A DNA stretch of 64,000 bases, taken from positions 1,798,001 to 1,862,000 of the forward strand of contig NZ_JACVPZ010000001.1 of NCBI RefSeq assembly GCF_018881605.1. The letters are read 5' to 3'. The notes beneath the pieces are model-generated. The model was not told the origin of the DNA and ran no database searches. It saw only the letters and a list, made by a program, of their open reading frames with translations. Both the position numbers and the translations under genes were made by a program. The DNA comes from Polynucleobacter sp. UB-Tiil-W10 (GTDB lineage Bacteria > Pseudomonadota > Gammaproteobacteria > Burkholderiales > Burkholderiaceae). Below, in pieces: positions 7,293 to 14,196 of the stretch (its first letter is position 1; each line of letters begins with the position of its first letter).

Positions 7293-8318
7293 ATGCTAGA
7301 AGCCGCTGATCAGGCGCTGGTAAATGATCTCACCGATGCGCCTTCGCTAAAACAGCGACGCGCGTTGGCAAAGATCATTACTTTGCTTGAATCAACTCGC
7401 CTTGATCATCGTCATCGTGCTGATGACGTATTGAATTCTTTATTGCCTAAAACAGGTAAATCATTTCGGCTTGGCATTTCAGGGGTTCCTGGAGTGGGTA
7501 AATCAACCTTGATTGAATCTTTGGGTCTTTATCTAATCGAAAAAGGTCATCGAGTTGCTGTATTGGCGATTGATCCCTCTTCAAGCATCTCTGGCGGTTC
7601 AATTTTGGGTGATAAGACTCGCATGGAGCGCTTATCTGTTCTCGAGAATGCCTTCATTCGCCCCAGTCCATCGTCTTGTACTTTAGGCGGTGTTGCTGAG
7701 AAGACTCGTGAAGCTATGTTGGTTGCAGAAGCCGCAGGCTTTGACATCATTATTGTGGAGACGGTCGGCGTAGGGCAGAGTGAAATCGCTGTTGCTGGTA
7801 TGACAGACATGTTCTTGTTATTGCAACTGCCCAATGCAGGTGATGATCTACAAGCCATTAAAAAAGGCGTAATGGAAATTGCCGATTTCATTGTGATTAA
7901 TAAAGTAGATATCGATCCTGATGCCGCCATGCGCGCTCAGCTATTTATCACTAGCTCATTACGTCTTTTGGGCTTTCAGGGCAACCCTGATCACGCATCA
8001 CATGACAAGGAGTTATGGCATCCACAGGTAATGACCTTGAGCGCCCTAGAGGGCAAAGGCGTTCCAGAGTTGTGGGATAAGGTTACACATTTTGAGCGTC
8101 TTCAAAAAGCGAATGGAAAGTTTGACTCTCGTCGCAAAGAACAAGCAGGCGCATGGATGTGGGACCGCATCGATGCAGGATTAAAAAACGCATTTCGTAG
8201 CAATGTGGCAGTGCAAGAGCTTCTACCAAGTTTGAGCGCACAAGTAAACCAAGGAACTATGGCAGCTTCAGTAGCGGCAAGACGACTACTAGAGGCCATG
8301 GGGCATGAATTTTTCTAA
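7293..8318 (+). CDS. meaB: Methylmalonyl-CoA mutase-associated GTPase MeaB
   Basis: 341 residues, 14 bases after the mutase. It is a G3E-type P-loop GTPase: Walker [10 protein letters not shown] near residues 64-72, ETVGVGQSE as the metal/switch motif, and NKVD for guanine recognition. MeaB (ArgK in E. coli) gates cofactor loading onto methylmalonyl-CoA mutase and protects or removes inactivated cobalamin. The older annotation as an arginine transport kinase is not supported. The gene lies between the mutase and propionyl-CoA carboxylase genes, and its last bases overlap the Shine-Dalgarno of pccB, so translation is probably coupled. Confidence 0.95.
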
Positions 8319-8322
8319 GGAG
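8317..8322 (+). promoter_or_regulatory. Ribosome binding site that fixes the pccB start
   Basis: AAGGAG ends six bases before the ATG at 8329. An in-frame ATG at 8305 lies upstream of this site and inside meaB, with no Shine-Dalgarno of its own, so translation most likely begins at 8329. Confidence 0.75.
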
Positions 8323-8328
8323 CAGGAA

Positions 8329-9861
8329 ATGAAGGAAATCATTCAACAACTGGAAGCCAAGCGTGAGCTTGCCCGTTTGGGTGGCGGGCAAAAACGCATT
8401 CAGGCTCAACATGCCAAGGGCAAGCTAACGGCCCGTGAGCGTATTGAGCTCTTGCTAGATGCCGGCACCTTCGAAGAATGGGATATGTTTGTTGAGCATC
8501 GTTGTCATGACTTTGGCATGGCCGATCAGACTGTTCCTGGTGATGGCGTGGTTACTGGTTATGGAATGATTAACGGCCGTTTGGTATTTGTGTTCTCACA
8601 GGATTTCACAGTATTGGGCGGCTCCTTATCTGAAGCTCATGCTGAAAAGATTTGCAAGATCATGGATCAGGCTCTTAAAGTTGGTGCTCCCGTGATCGGT
8701 TTGAATGACTCTGGTGGTGCACGTATTCAAGAAGGTGTTGCCTCACTTGGCGGCTATGCAGAAATCTTCCAGCGCAATGTGACTGCTTCTGGCGTGATTC
8801 CCCAAATCTCCCTGATCATGGGTCCTTCAGCTGGTGGTGCTGTGTACTCTCCCGCTTTGACGGATTTCATCTTTATGGTTAAAGACAGCTCGTACATGTT
8901 CGTGACTGGTCCTGAAGTAGTCAAGACCGTTACTCATGAAGATGTGACTGCTGAAGAATTGGGTGGCGCAGTAACCCATTCAACAGTTTCTGGTGTTTGT
9001 GATTTAGCATTTGATAACGATGTTGACGCCATCATGATGTTGCGTCGCTTCTTTAACTACTTGCCACTATCAAACCGCGAAAAACCACCTTTGATCAAAG
9101 GTGCCAATCGCACTGAAGAGCCGGACTTCTCTTTGGATACCCTGGTCCCATCCAATCCAAATCAACCTTATGACATGAAAGAGTTGATTGAGAAGATTGT
9201 GGATGATGGTGAGTTCTTTGAATTGCAACCGGACTACGCAAAAAATATTGTGATTGGCTTTGCTCGTATCGAAGGCCGTTCCATCGGTATTGTTGCCAAT
9301 CAACCATTGATCCTAGCTGGTTGCTTAGATATCAAGGCCTCCATTAAAGCTGCTCGTTTCGTGCGCTTTTGTGATGCCTTCAATATTCCTGTAGTGACTT
9401 TAGTTGACGTACCTGGTTTTATGCCTGGTACGGCCCAAGAGTACGGCGGAATCATTAAGCATGGCGCGAAATTACTGTATGCCTATGCTGATTGCACTGT
9501 ACCGAAAGTGACTTTGATTACCCGCAAGGCCTATGGTGGCGCCTATGACGTGATGGCTTCTAAACATTTGCGTGGTGACGTTAACTTTGCTTGGCCTTCA
9601 GCAGAAATTGCCGTGATGGGACCTAAAGGAGCTGTAGAAATTATTTTCCGTGAAGAGAAATCGGATCCAGAAAAAATTACTGCACGTGAAGCCGAATACA
9701 AGTCTAAGTTCGCTAACCCATTTGTAGCCGGTCGTCGCGGCTATATTGATGACGTCATTCTTCCACATGAAACCCGCAAGCGTATTGCCCGTTCCCTAGC
9801 AATGCTCAAAGATAAAGACTTGAAGAATCCTGCGCGTAAACACGGCAATATTCCTCTGTAA
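8329..9861 (+). CDS. pccB: Propionyl-CoA carboxylase beta subunit (carboxyltransferase)
   Basis: 510 residues from the ATG at 8329, a typical PccB length. It transfers CO2 from carboxybiotin to propionyl-CoA to form (S)-methylmalonyl-CoA. Both crotonase-like halves are seen: the oxyanion-hole stretch [15 protein letters not shown] and [17 protein letters not shown] in the first, and [28 protein letters not shown] in the second. The partner alpha subunit is 15 bases downstream. The operon position next to methylmalonyl-CoA mutase supports propionyl-CoA over acetyl-CoA, although related enzymes accept several acyl-CoAs. Confidence 0.94.
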
Positions 9862-9876
9862 AGGCGCTGACAAATA

Positions 9877-11913
9877 ATGACTACGAAAATGTTTAAGAAA
9901 ATATTGATTGCTAACCGCGGTGAAATTGCATGCCGCGTGATGATGACCGCTAAAAAAATGGGCATCAAGACTGTTGCTGTTTATTCTGAGGCAGATAAAG
10001 AGGCTCGCCACGTGCAGCTTGCTGATGAGGCAGTTTGTATTGGCCCCGCACCATCGCGTGAATCCTATCTGGTGATGGATCGGATCATTCAAGCTTGTAA
10101 AGACACTGGTGCAGAGGCGGTGCACCCAGGCTATGGCTTCCTATCTGAAAACGAGCAATTCGCTAAGCGCTGTGAGGAAGAGGGCATTGTCTTTATTGGC
10201 CCTAAGCATCAATCTATTGCGGCAATGGGCGACAAGATTGCCTCCAAGAAGCTTGCCCTAGAAGCAAAAGTAAATACCATACCTGGCTACAACGAAGCAA
10301 TTGATACCACTGAAGAAGCGGTCAAGATTGCTCAAGGTATTGGCTATCCCGTCATGATTAAAGCTTCTGCGGGCGGCGGCGGTAAGGGCTTACGCGTTGC
10401 CTTCAACGATAAAGAAGCTGCCGAAGGCTTTGCAGCCTGCAAAACTGAGGCGATGAATAGTTTTGGCGATGATCGTATCTTTATTGAGAAGTTCGTAGAA
10501 GGCCCGCGTCACATTGAGATTCAGGTATTGGGCGACTCTCATGGCAACGTGGTTTATCTAAACGAGCGCGATTGCTCAATTCAGCGTCGCCACCAAAAGG
10601 TGATCGAAGAAGCGCCATCACCATTTATCGATCCCACAACTCGTAAAGCCATGGGCGAACAAGCGGTTGCGTTGGCAAAGGCTGTGAACTATCAGTCTGC
10701 GGGTACGGTTGAATTTGTTGTTGGTAAAGATAAGTCTTTCTACTTCTTGGAAATGAATACCCGCTTGCAAGTAGAGCATCCAGTAACAGAAAGCATTACT
10801 GGTCTTGACTTAGTCGAGCAAATGATTCGTGTTGCCGCTGGTGAGAAATTGGCATTTAAACAAGAAGATGTGAAATTGGATGGTTGGTCAATGGAGTGCC
10901 GTATTAATGCCGATGATCCATTCCGCAACTTCCTGCCTTCAACCGGCCGGTTAGTGAAGTACCGTCCACCAGAGGCAGTTAACGGAGTCCGCGTTGATAC
11001 TGGTGTGTATGAGGGCGGCGAGATCCCGATGTATTACGACTCGATGATTGCTAAGTTAATTGTGCACGGCAGGGATCGTACGGAAGCCATTGAAAAAATG
11101 CGTGCAGCATTAAATGATTTTGTGATTCGTGGAATTCATTCCAATATCCCATTTCAAGCTGCCTTATTGCAGCACCCACGATTTGTGAATGGCGATTTCA
11201 CAACGGGCTTTATTGCTGAAGAGTATCCAGAGGGCTTCAAAAAGGATTCTGTGCAGCCTGCGGATCCGAAGCGATTGGCTGCATTAGCTGCATTTATGCG
11301 TTATCGCTACCTTGAGCATATTCAAATGATTGATGGCCAATTAGCTGGTCATGAAATGATCATCGGTAAGAAGTTTGTCGTAGTTACTGGCAAAAAATCA
11401 GGCTCAATGGATGACCCGTATGAAGTACCTATTCGCGTTGAACTCAAGGATGGTATTTATTCTGTCTACATCGACGAGGCAGATGGTGTAAGCCGCTATG
11501 ACATTGTCAGCAATTGGCGACCAGGACAAATTTGTCTGCATGCCACCATTAACGGTACTCATAAGATCACCGCACAAGTTGAGCGCCGTGGCGTGAGATA
11601 TGTCTTGATTCTTGACGGCGTACATTACGAGTGTATGGTTCTGAGCCCATTGGGAGCAGAGCTTCAGCGTCGTATGCCCGTGAAGTTACCACCGGATACT
11701 TCTAAATTGGTTATGTCTCCGATGCCTGGTCTCTTAACCAAGATAGCCGTTAAAGTTGGTGAAGCGGTTACCGCTGGACAAAAATTGGCCTCGATTGAAG
11801 CGATGAAAATGGAAAATACCCTGTCTGCTATGCAAGACGGTGTAGTTGCTGAGATTTGTGCCAAAGAGGGCGATAGCTTAGCGGTTGATCAATTGATCAT
11901 TCGCTTCGAATAA
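9877..11913 (+). CDS. pccA: Propionyl-CoA carboxylase alpha subunit (biotin carboxylase and carrier)
   Basis: 678 residues. The amino part is biotin carboxylase ([14 protein letters not shown] at the start, ATP-grasp glycine loop [26 protein letters not shown]). A middle BT linker region follows, then a biotinyl carrier domain at the carboxyl end with SIEAMKMEN; the biotinylated Lys is residue 644. It carboxylates biotin with ATP and bicarbonate and hands the group to PccB encoded just upstream. ATG at 9877 is used; an ATG four codons later is an alternative. Length and BT domain fit PccA rather than AccC. Confidence 0.94.
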
Positions 11914-11927
11914 TAGGGTTGATGACG

Positions 11928-12395
11928 ATGAGCGCTAAGCCATTCAAAATTTTAGGTATTCAGCAAATTGCCATTGGCGGTGAAAATAAAGATCGACTCA
12001 AGAAGTTATGGGTTGATATGCTGGGATTTGAATACAAAAGTACTTTTGTCTCTGAACGTGAAAATGTTGATGAAGATATCTGTGCCATTGGTTCTGGTGC
12101 GCATGAGATTGAAGTTGATCTCATGCAGCCCTTTGATATTGAAAAGAAGCCAGCCGTTCATCAAACACCGCTTAACCATATAGGTTTGTGGGTAGATGAT
12201 TTGCCAAAGGCGGTTGAATGGCTTTCCGCAAATGGTCTGCGTTTTGCCCCTGGGGGCATCCGTAAGGGCGCTGCCGGCTATGACATCACGTTCGTTCACC
12301 CCAAGGGAAATGATGAGTTTCCAATTAGTGGAGAAGGGGTCTTAATTGAGCTGGTTCAAGCTCCTCCCGAAGTCATCGCGGGATTAAGTTCATAA
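11928..12395 (+). CDS. VOC family protein, possible methylmalonyl-CoA epimerase or glyoxalase-like enzyme
   Basis: 155 residues from ATG 11928, nine bases after AGGG; a TTG at 11919 and an ATG at 11922 are also in frame. Two paired beta-alpha-beta-beta-beta VOC modules are visible. The expected ligand positions read Gln13 (GIQQIAIGG), an acidic residue in HEIEVDL (about residue 62), His84 (NHIGLWVDD) and Glu141 (GVLIELVQ). Last gene of the propionate operon, six bases from the pccA stop, so epimerisation of methylmalonyl-CoA is the natural role, needed between PCC and the mutase. However, methylmalonyl-CoA epimerases normally have His at the first ligand position, while Gln/Glu/His/Glu is the human glyoxalase I pattern. 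Function is therefore left open. Confidence 0.75.
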
Positions 12396-12440: not shown

Positions 12441-13145
12441 GTGGCAAATCTACTGGCCATCGACACCTCCTCTGCCTGGTGTTCGGTGGCTTTATCTTTA
12501 GGTGATCAAGCACCAGAGCTCAGACATGAAGCGGTCTCAGCTGGCGCTAGCCAGCTACTATTGCCATGGATTGAGTCAATGTTAAGCACAGCAAATATTG
12601 CTTTAAAAGACCTTGATGCTATTGCCGTAGGCATTGGGCCAGGCGCATTTACGGGTGTGAGGTTGGGTGTAGCGGCAGTTCAAGGTCTAGCCATTTCACA
12701 TAATCTCCCAGTTATCTCTGTCAGTAGCTTGGATGCAATAGCGGCTCAATTGGTTGGCACAAGGAACTTTAAAAAATCTAACCCGCAACGATTTTGTATT
12801 GCTATTGATGCGCGCATGGAAGAGGTCTATTGGGCTCAATATGAAACTCAACTTGATCGGCTACCTCAGCGCATTGGCGACATACAACTCACTAGGCCTG
12901 AAGATATTGATCTTGAGGGCATGGAGTTCTTGGCTGGCAGCGCCATTAGCGCTTATGGCGAACGTTTACCGGGCTTTAAGGGCGTCTTAGATGCGGACAT
13001 TGCGGTATCCGCATTAGGAATCTTCGATTGCGCCAAACAATTGTTTGCGCAAGGGAAGCAACATGATGTTCGCCAACTTGAACCTCTGTATGTCCGTAAT
13101 AAGGTGGCATTAACTACTGCTGAGCGCAAAGAGGCCTTTAAGTAA
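12441..13145 (+). CDS. tsaB: tRNA threonylcarbamoyladenosine biosynthesis protein TsaB
   Basis: 234 residues, GTG start at 12441. TsaB is the ASKHA-fold partner of TsaD in making t6A37 of ANN-decoding tRNAs. The family signature LLAIDTSSAWCSVAL opens the protein and GIGPGAFTGVRLGVAAVQGLA follows near residue 70. Its stop overlaps the rimI start by one base, as in many proteobacteria where tsaB and rimI travel together. It lacks the metal-binding His pair of TsaD, as expected. Confidence 0.93.
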   Translation: MANLLAIDTSSAWCSVALSLGDQAPELRHEAVSAGASQLLLPWIESMLSTANIALKDLDAIAVGIGPGAFTGVRLGVAAVQGLAISHNLPVISVSSLDAIAAQLVGTRNFKKSNPQRFCIAIDARMEEVYWAQYETQLDRLPQRIGDIQLTRPEDIDLEGMEFLAGSAISAYGERLPGFKGVLDADIAVSALGIFDCAKQLFAQGKQHDVRQLEPLYVRNKVALTTAERKEAFK

Positions 13146-13675
13146 TGTCCGAACATTTAGCAGTTGAAGGCGAAGCGGAGCTCTCATTCTTGCCGATGCA
13201 AGTTGCAGATCTTGATGAGGTCTTGAAGATTGAATCCGTCTCGCATATTCATCCCTGGACTAAGGGTAACTTTTCTGACTCTTTAGCTGCTGGACATTGG
13301 GCATATTGCATTCGGCCTCAAGTTGAACAGGTGGTGAAGGGATCTTATTTGGATCCAACAATCCTGTGGGCTTATTGCATTTTATTTCCTGCTGTCGATG
13401 AATTGCACCTGCTCAATATTACGGTTTCGCCTCTTTTGCGCAAACTTGGCTTGGGCAAAAGAATGATGGCTGCAATCGAAGGCGTTGCCACTCAACAAAA
13501 AATGCCGCGCATCATTTTAGAAGTTAGACCAACCAATGCCGCCGCTTTGGCGCTTTATCAAAAATTAGCTTACGAGCAAATTGGGGTGCGCAAGAATTAC
13601 TATCCCGCTAGTCCAGAGACCGGTTCTCGAGAGGATGCGCTGGTGATGGCTAAATCGATTAAGCTAGAGTTATGA
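13145..13675 (+). CDS. rimI: Ribosomal protein S18-alanine N-acetyltransferase
   Basis: 176 residues, somewhat longer than E. coli RimI (148) because of an amino-terminal extension and an insert around residues 55-72. The GNAT acetyl-CoA-binding motif reads LLNITVSPLLRKLGLGKRMM, and the end ILEVRPTNAAALALYQKLAY followed by GVRKNYYP is diagnostic for RimI. It acetylates the amino-terminal Ala of S18. It overlaps tsaB by one base and the next gene by four (ATGA), indicating translational coupling across three genes. Confidence 0.93.
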   Translation: MSEHLAVEGEAELSFLPMQVADLDEVLKIESVSHIHPWTKGNFSDSLAAGHWAYCIRPQVEQVVKGSYLDPTILWAYCILFPAVDELHLLNITVSPLLRKLGLGKRMMAAIEGVATQQKMPRIILEVRPTNAAALALYQKLAYEQIGVRKNYYPASPETGSREDALVMAKSIKLEL

Positions 13676-14196
13676 CCAATAATCATTCAACCTTCTTGAA
13701 AGAAATGGGTATTACCGAATGGACCTCACGGGATGCTGTGAAGCCCCTTGCTGAAGTCGCTGTGGCTGCAAGCATCCAAAATGTTGCCTCGGACGCTGAC
13801 TCGGCACAGCGCTCCTCATATGGATCCTGGTGGTTTTTCGGTAATGAGCCGCAGGGCGATGCTCAAATTTTGTTCCAAAATATCATCCGTGTTTTGGGCT
13901 TAGCCAGAAATGAATGGTCCTGGAAAAGTGCCTCGGATAATTTAAGTCAATTATCCAGCCCCGAGTCGCCAGTGGTAGTGGTTGCTTTTGGGGGATCGGT
14001 AGCCCAGAAGATTACTGGAGAAAGAGATCCACTGCCACAATTGCGTGAAACGGTGTTAGCTCTGAAGACTGGAAATGACGAAGAAATTCCGGTGATTGCT
14101 TCTTTTGAATTAAATCAAGTCCTCACTAAGCCTAAAGAAAAGGCTTTGCTATGGCAGGACTTATTACTCGCTAGATCTGTACTGCAAAATAGTTGA
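13672..14196 (+). CDS. Degenerate uracil-DNA glycosylase-like / HolD-like protein
   Basis: 174 residues, overlapping rimI by four bases. The opening FLKEMGITEWTSRD (residues 8-21) resembles both the start of DNA polymerase III psi (HolD, which lies beside rimI in enterics) and the start of betaproteobacterial family 4-type uracil glycosylases. Residues 53-82 (WWFFGNEPQGD to GLARNEWSW) line up with the GEAPG motif and the LLxxMLxAIGLxR helix of those glycosylases. Residues 101-168 match the closing part (LALGxxAAQ...LR...KxxxWxDLLLA). The catalytic motifs are altered (GEAPG to GNEPQ; the HPAYLLR His is absent) and no Fe-S cysteines remain. I infer a non-catalytic protein with this fold, possibly a psi subunit. 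No direct proof. Confidence 0.65.
   Translation: MTNNHSTFLKEMGITEWTSRDAVKPLAEVAVAASIQNVASDADSAQRSSYGSWWFFGNEPQGDAQILFQNIIRVLGLARNEWSWKSASDNLSQLSSPESPVVVVAFGGSVAQKITGERDPLPQLRETVLALKTGNDEEIPVIASFELNQVLTKPKEKALLWQDLLLARSVLQNS

Follow-up and report, generated by a model that had tools for sequence, protein, structure and literature searches.

The gene that directly follows rimI in Polynucleobacter sp. UB-Tiil-W10 very probably encodes psi (HolD) of the DNA polymerase III clamp loader, with a dead uracil-DNA glycosylase (UDG) as its body and, as its ancestor, a family-4 UDG that carried the psi peptide. The protein is best filed as a long, UDG-like variant of psi, which is expected to function as psi does, its glycosylase body being dead. 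The gene lies in a window (the whole stretch of DNA that was analyzed, 64,000 nucleotides) from a genome of 2.04 Mb, and its features are listed in Table 1.

TABLE 1 Positions in the window of the psi candidate gene, its parts, and its upstream neighbors
Feature	Position	Strand	Basis or remark
Whole gene, very probably psi (HolD) with degenerate family-4 UDG body	13672..14196	+	174 aa + stop
N-terminal psi peptide, residues 6-20 (STFLKEMGITEWTSR)	13687..13731	+	Matrix rank 1 of 636 frames; L9, G13, and W17 invariant in alignments A1 and A2
Linker, residues 21-50	13732..13821	+	Predicted disorder (pLDDT <50 at residues 21-46); fast evolving, dN 0.47-1.13
UDG-fold body, residues 51-174, putative chi-binding module	13822..14193	+	pLDDT; family-4 UDG Z 12.0, E. 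coli psi Z 8.4
Lost motif A, GNEPQ for GEAPG, residues 57-61	13840..13854	+	Profile alignments
Lost motif B, ASFELNQVL for TYHPAYLL	14098..14124	+	Profile alignments
K...W.DL..A stretch	14140..14172	+	K157, W161, D163, L164, and A167 invariant in A1
rimI, ATGA overlap with the psi gene	13145..13675	+	NCBIfam TIGR01575, 90.2 bits (cut-off 86.4)
tsaB, upstream of rimI	12441..13145	+	NCBIfam TIGR03725, 179.4 bits (cut-off 69.3)

RESULTS

A gene overlapping rimI codes for a glycosylase-like protein devoid of cysteines

The open reading frame starts with an ATG located inside the stop codon of rimI. A preliminary description of this DNA, made from the sequence, had likened the arrangement to that of holD in enterics; the overlap stands, but the order is opposite, with rimI preceding psi here and holD preceding rimI in E. 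coli. Upstream of tsaB, positions 7293 to 12395 hold what we take to be ordinary genes (a MeaB-type GTPase, propionyl-CoA carboxylase subunits, and epimerase look-alikes). The same genome encodes chi (PF04364, E = 2.4e-28) and a family-1 glycosylase, Ung (L002). It also codes for a second protein of the UDG superfamily (L001, C2:829691-830149), of 195 aa, with GQAPGSRVHETGIPF and HPSPRN.

Four cysteines that hold a 4Fe-4S cluster are part of the definition of family-4 UDGs. The 174-residue translation contains none, so no Fe-S cluster is expected. Profile alignments placed GNEPQ at motif A instead of GEAPG, and ASFELNQVL against TYHPAYLL at motif B, whose His is thus a Glu. All three losses had been read from the sequence in the preliminary description and hold. 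The accessible text of PMC10359453 gives the motifs of the family as GE(A/G)PG (motif A) and the HPS(S/A)LL type (motif B). With both catalytic motifs and all cysteines gone, we infer from the sequence that the body would no longer be a glycosylase. The K/R...W part of the K...W.DL..A stretch is common to psi, to family-4 UDGs (UDG4), and to UDGs with a psi peptide (here called UDG-psi).

The protein matches both psi and family-4 UDGs by profile and predicted fold

The Pfam model DNA_III_psi (PF03603) matched residues 3 to 162 with 24.0 bits, above its cut-off of 22.2 (E = 5e-5). The NCBIfam model for family-4 UDGs, TIGR00758, gave a weak match to residues 99 to 168 (23 bits, cut-off 125.3; E = 5.4e-5). 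Two NCBIfam psi models matched the N terminus far under their cut-offs (14.3 versus 180 bits and 14.1 versus 189 bits); these models are narrow, and psi of E. coli itself passes three of the seven that it matches. With regard to family-4 UDGs, the protein has the fold, and it lacks motif A, motif B, the cysteines, and a TIGR00758 score above the cut-off.

Searches of the PDB with the single sequence returned no match, and a tight profile (A2, 74 sequences) found neither psi nor UDG there. The genus alignment (A1) retrieved 29 rows from the PDB sequences, among them UDG or UdgX on the body (best E-value 0.011, a weak match) and E. coli psi on residues 1 to 26 alone (E = 0.55), with unrelated rows at E-values of 1 to 1.4. 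The two parts of the protein may therefore point to two families, UDG and psi, as this search weakly suggests.

Alignment profiles were also compared with one another, in pairs, such that the E-values are not database-wide. The classical psi profile comprised 9 rows, with E. coli first, and the UDG4 profile 13 sequences from outside the class, without the peptide. The genus profile matched classical psi with a probability of 98.8% over almost its full length (E = 7.6e-17), UDG4 without the peptide with 97.0%, aligned from the FG..A element to K..W.DL, and 27 UDG-psi of Burkholderiales with 99.8% (E = 2e-27). The chi controls gave 0.1% and 0.2%. The likeness to both families that had been proposed is therefore supported.

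A structure was predicted with AlphaFold2 from 74 A2 rows, with a mean pLDDT of 80. Residues 21 to 46 had values below 50, and the 10-residue blocks of the body had means of 84 to 97, except for one at 78. The model has the glycosylase core that had been anticipated. In a Foldseek search of the PDB, ranks 1 to 35 were family-4 UDGs or UdgX (best 4zby, E = 1.1e-5) and ranks 36 to 38 were E. coli psi (1em8_B, with E = 1.9e-3, 3sxu_B, and 1em8_D); these 38 rows had probabilities of 0.99 to 1.00, and the other 12 of the 50 best rows had 0.47 or less. VIA-align superposed the model on the family-4 UDG 4zbx with Z 12.0 (rmsd 2.6, 122 residues aligned) and on E. coli psi (3sxu_B) with Z 8.4 (95 of its 102 residues aligned), while TDG and MUG scored near 7. 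By fold, the body is thus nearer UDG4 than psi, and the psi value is close to what unrelated folds may score; a chain of a phage polymerase (9qhs_A) reached 9.0. Sequence identity of the model to its UDG4, UdgX, and psi matches was 14 to 23%.

An intact UDG with a psi peptide follows rimI in most of the Burkholderiales loci read

Matches to A1 occurred in 137 of the 150 genomes searched in the family and in 225 of 250 in the order. We read 81 loci of the order (L068-L108 and L201-L240), chosen as the best-scoring ones, then about one per listed family, with extra loci of the own family. A UDG frame was present in 79 of them and absent from L238 and L239. Of these 79 loci, 76 had rimI immediately upstream in the same orientation, and rimI was not found in the fetched stretch of L098, L220, and L235. 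Motif A was present in 77 (in one as GEAPN), motif B in 74, and a CxxC somewhere in the frame in all 79. The psi peptide scored at least 7.5 in 76, which are partly the training set of the matrix described below. The exceptions were L221, L222, and L235, without a peptide score; L221 (whose GEAPN was counted as motif A), L222, L226, L235, and L236, without motif B; and L226 and L235, also without motif A. These counts indicate that, across the order, rimI is usually followed by a family-4 UDG that retains its catalytic motifs and carries a psi peptide. The 27 aligned proteins of this kind matched classical psi with 98.3% in the profile-profile comparison.

The matrix was trained on 36 peptides of Burkholderiales UDG-psi, with Polynucleobacter, gammaproteobacterial, and classical psi left out. 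Among the 636 frames in the window, the Polynucleobacter gene had the highest score (17.0, with 12.9 for the runner-up), and among the 620 frames in a 50-kb stretch from E. coli, holD did (13.9, with 10.6 for the runner-up); the lead over the decoys was modest in both cases. An earlier remark that the first residues resemble both HolD and betaproteobacterial UDGs holds. The Burkholderiales consensus is LxELGLxPxWRLR, whose Trp, like the catalytic residues, is the same in all 27 intact proteins that were aligned. A search of the PDB with the 19 peptide columns alone gave no match.

The same kind of protein adjoins rimI in most gammaproteobacterial loci read and in no control locus outside the class

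With an alignment of UDG-psi (A4), we searched 229 genomes of the class, mostly one or two per family and three from Burkholderiales. A match was found in 184 genomes and none in 45. The best 30 loci comprised one from Burkholderiales (L249) and 29 gammaproteobacterial ones, all of which had the peptide and both motifs, with rimI directly downstream in 25. As a guard against bias toward good peptides, we added 20 gammaproteobacterial loci whose profile match started after residue 30; the peptide was present in 18 and rimI downstream in 18. In total, 47 of 49 gammaproteobacterial loci had the peptide, which was absent from the open frame of L369 and L379, and 43 of 49 had rimI. The gammaproteobacterial UDG-psi occupies the place of holD in E. 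coli, where holD comes first and runs into rimI. UDG-psi thus comes after rimI in Burkholderiales and before it in Gammaproteobacteria, which indicates that the two genes stayed adjacent through an inversion of their order.

The PF03603 model was less sensitive. A six-frame search with it found psi in only 9 of the 229 class genomes and missed the Polynucleobacter gene in its own genome, and thus this search undercounts psi. The peptide matrix ranked the psi frame first in eight of the nine gammaproteobacterial loci found in this way and second in L195. Chi was detected in 193 of the 229 genomes. At least 11 of the 36 genomes without a chi match had an A4 (UDG-psi-type) match (11 of the 20 listed among the 36), so that chi and UDG-psi do not always co-occur.

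The control outside the class drew on other parts of the phylum and consisted of 45 UDG4 loci (the 25 best and 20 from further families, with three class loci set aside). None of the 45 had a peptide score of 5 or more, and in none was rimI found within the fetched stretch. The matrix test and this control speak against chance as the source of the peptide likeness, despite the modest lead over the decoys and the empty PDB search with the peptide alone. Most of the loci L273 to L296, of one family outside the class (f228), have an N-terminal YLREIGVxTP near the place of the psi peptide, without the Trp; this YLREIGVQTP-type peptide may perhaps be a precursor or a site for a different partner.

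These data bear on the possibility that the protein is a degenerate UDG-fold protein with a role outside replication, such as uracil or AP-site binding, and that its psi peptide is a coincidence. Such a role would agree with a body that is closer in fold to UDG4 than to psi (Z 12.0 versus 8.4) and with a peptide that is short and by itself matches nothing in the PDB. However, none of the 45 loci outside the class has the peptide, compared with 76 of 79 in Burkholderiales (which in part served as the training set) and 47 of 49 in Gammaproteobacteria, its Trp does not vary in the 27 aligned intact proteins, the Pfam psi match spans residues 3 to 162, and the peptide is mostly retained where the UDG part has decayed. 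We therefore regard a role outside replication as unlikely and favor the identification of the protein as psi.

Classical psi and family-4 UDGs are linked by intermediate forms

Convergence on a common alpha/beta fold would also account for the likeness between psi and UDG, with the Burkholderiales UDGs being unrelated to psi; a fold held in common can by itself yield Z values near 8, and identities of 14 to 23% to UDG4, UdgX, and psi are low. Several findings argue against it. Classical psi and UDG4 without the peptide matched with 96.3% (E = 1.7e-9, pairwise), in an alignment that runs through the motif-B region, compared with 0.1% for unrelated chi. The short gammaproteobacterial psi proteins of L194 and L195 still contain the motif-B remnants FHPSHLM and HHPSHLL. 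The gammaproteobacterial protein of L198, which has the peptide, passes the Pfam cut-offs of both psi (23.4 bits, cut-off 22.2) and UDG (117.4 bits). Finally, the psi and the UDG kinds both adjoin rimI. Convergence is thus very unlikely, even more so than a role outside replication.

In L198, motif A is GEMPN and the cysteines are apparently kept. It was one of three UDG-psi tested, all of which, including L198 with its altered motif A, passed the NCBIfam cut-off for family-4 UDGs; with the Pfam psi model, L198 passed, L246 fell just short, and L224 gave nothing. Intermediates also exist within Polynucleobacter, where YHPxHLL is retained in some members (L039-L045) and GQAPGGD in one (L047). 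The search for intermediates that the preliminary description had recommended was thus fruitful in the genus and across Beta- and Gammaproteobacteria. Taken together, the sequences suggest an enzyme of the family-4 UDG type as the ancestor of psi at large, E. coli psi included. Classical HolD resembles a reduced version of a UDG that carries the peptide.

Peptide and body are under purifying selection in Polynucleobacter

The gene was found in 98 of 101 Polynucleobacter genomes and in all 79 of good quality. In 20 further loci of the genus, picked for variety, rimI (recognized by eye) was beside the relative in 19; the remaining locus, L035, is cut by a contig end. A2 contains the window gene and 73 of 80 fetched loci (of the other seven, six lacked a parsed frame and one was excluded), and its invariant residues are L9, E11, M12, G13, and W17 in the peptide and W161, D163, L164, and A167 in the body. 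Compared with 11 relatives, dN was 0.03 to 0.13 in the peptide (residues 1 to 20), with dS of at least 0.68 where computable, and 0.05 to 0.21 in the body (residues 51 to 174), where synonymous sites were near saturation. The linker (residues 21 to 50) was nearly free to change. Peptide and body are thus under purifying selection. The low dN of both parts and the occurrence almost throughout the genus (98 of 101 genomes) also establish that this is a real gene. The lost catalytic motifs and the variable sequence could be those of a decaying UDG pseudogene, but the low dN of peptide and body, the presence in 79 of 79 good genomes, and the confidently predicted fold leave that explanation a negligible probability, and we rejected it on dN/dS and conservation.

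The glycosylase part has decayed repeatedly

We checked the neighborhood of rimI in 30 Burkholderiales genomes, comprising 20 from the order and 4 from the family without an A1 match and 6 with weak or odd matches. A rimI-like match was found in 29 of them. Short or degenerate proteins with the peptide were present in families f9, f18, f26, f34, f44, f4, and f49, and degenerate forms, mostly with low matrix scores (identified by eye), also in genera of f1 other than Polynucleobacter. These proteins have no motif A, no CxxC, and mostly no motif B, with HPARLL kept in two of four f44 loci. Peptide scores were below 7.5 in L311, L316, L319, L321, and L323, the last with a psi-like frame that has Tyr for Trp. 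L324 has a UDG-like frame without the peptide, and no psi frame was seen at L326 to L329. The Pfam psi cut-off was passed by one (L302) of six degenerate Burkholderiales proteins tested. In several lineages, the glycosylase part has thus decayed and the peptide has stayed. Because intact members occur in f1, f4, f26, and f49 as well, vertical descent would require four losses or more, counted by family label without a species tree. A tree of 152 rows and 149 columns, drawn to examine a single origin of the peptide, required 6, 4, and 3 changes for the beta, gamma, and outside rows, respectively, and it separated the two Polynucleobacter groups, whose branches were very long (4.96 and 3.27).

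A backup glycosylase that permits the loss is not a general rule. Ung (family 1) was found in 12 of 28 genomes with a degenerate protein (5 Polynucleobacter and 23 others) and in 17 of 45 with an intact one, with 2 more of the 45 weak. All five Polynucleobacter genomes had it, two with scores just under the cut-off. In f9, f18, and f34 of the order, genomes with degenerate psi have no family-1 Ung match. Genome reduction, which the preliminary description had invoked as the setting, was rejected as the cause, as a 1.2-Mb genome (L231) keeps GEAPG and HPAYL, and the degenerate form is found in genomes of 4.1 Mb (G333) and 3.3 to 3.4 Mb (G398 and G433). The reuse of a glycosylase fold as psi, which it had also proposed, is supported by the profiles and the predicted core; it looks less like a one-off, since across the class this locus often holds a UDG that carries the peptide.

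DISCUSSION

In E. coli, psi inserts its N-terminal part into the DnaX collar, and the link to SSB is made by chi, according to the accessible parts of PMC11253446 and PMC3290774. By analogy, residues 6 to 20 of the Polynucleobacter protein are expected to enter the DnaX collar. The peptide would sit among the DnaX (tau) subunits as an anchor, the linker would be a tether between anchor and body, and the body would hold chi (HolC), which in turn would hold SSB. The ancestor would have been a family-4 UDG with the peptide, of the kind that is still intact beside rimI in most other Burkholderiales loci that we read. Removal of uracil in this Polynucleobacter genome could fall to Ung.

The protein resembles E. 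coli HolD (1EM8, 3SXU) in its N-terminal peptide (MGITEW versus LGITQW), the fold of its body (Z 8.4), the C-terminal W region, the overlap with an adjoining rimI, and the presence of chi in the genome. It differs in length (174 versus 137 aa), in its 30-residue linker, in a body nearer to UDG4, and in having rimI first. With family-4 UDGs (TIGR00758; 4ZBX, 1UI0) and UdgX it shares the body fold (Z 12.0 over 122 residues), but it lacks GEAPG, HPxxLL, and the cysteines and has the psi peptide in addition. The intact UDG-psi of Burkholderiales and Gammaproteobacteria are alike in their rimI locus and peptide, with a body homology of 99.8% to those of Burkholderiales, and unlike in that they keep GE(A/G)PG, HPAYLL, and the cysteines. 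Psi of Pseudomonas aeruginosa (PA4679) is described in the accessible text of PMC3197488 and PMC8879598 as another divergent and longer psi that homology searches missed; in contrast to the Polynucleobacter protein, it has 278 aa with a DNA-binding N-terminal part.

A 2012 review (PMC3290774) states, in its accessible part, that chi occurs in alpha-, beta-, and gammaproteobacteria and psi only in gammaproteobacteria, and asks whether psi elsewhere has diverged past detection or is absent. The present gene is a candidate for the psi that this review, as far as accessible, could not find in betaproteobacteria. Betaproteobacterial psi would thus sit in proteins that family models call uracil-DNA glycosylase or fail to recognize. 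With some confidence, though less than for the identity of the gene itself, we propose that ancestral psi of Beta- and Gammaproteobacteria was a working Fe-S family-4 UDG bound to DnaX and to chi/SSB, which would have excised uracil in the replisome; that HolD of E. coli and that of Polynucleobacter are separate dead remnants of it; and that this fills the gap of the missing betaproteobacterial psi. If so, a glycosylase is predicted to be part of the clamp loader in many bacteria, a repair enzyme would be the likely origin of a replisome subunit, and the repeated loss of the enzyme with the peptide kept would be a natural series from enzyme to scaffold.

A link between psi and UDG was not found in the literature searched, which was limited to open-licence papers. 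In the accessible text of the open-licence clamp-loader and replication papers that were searched for the word "glycosylase," it was absent except from PMC11253446, where it occurs once, for Ung. The phage polymerase chain that scored Z 9.0 against the UDG-like body, 9qhs_A, is a family-A DNA polymerase of phage phiLo and may perhaps be a further replication protein that carries this fold.
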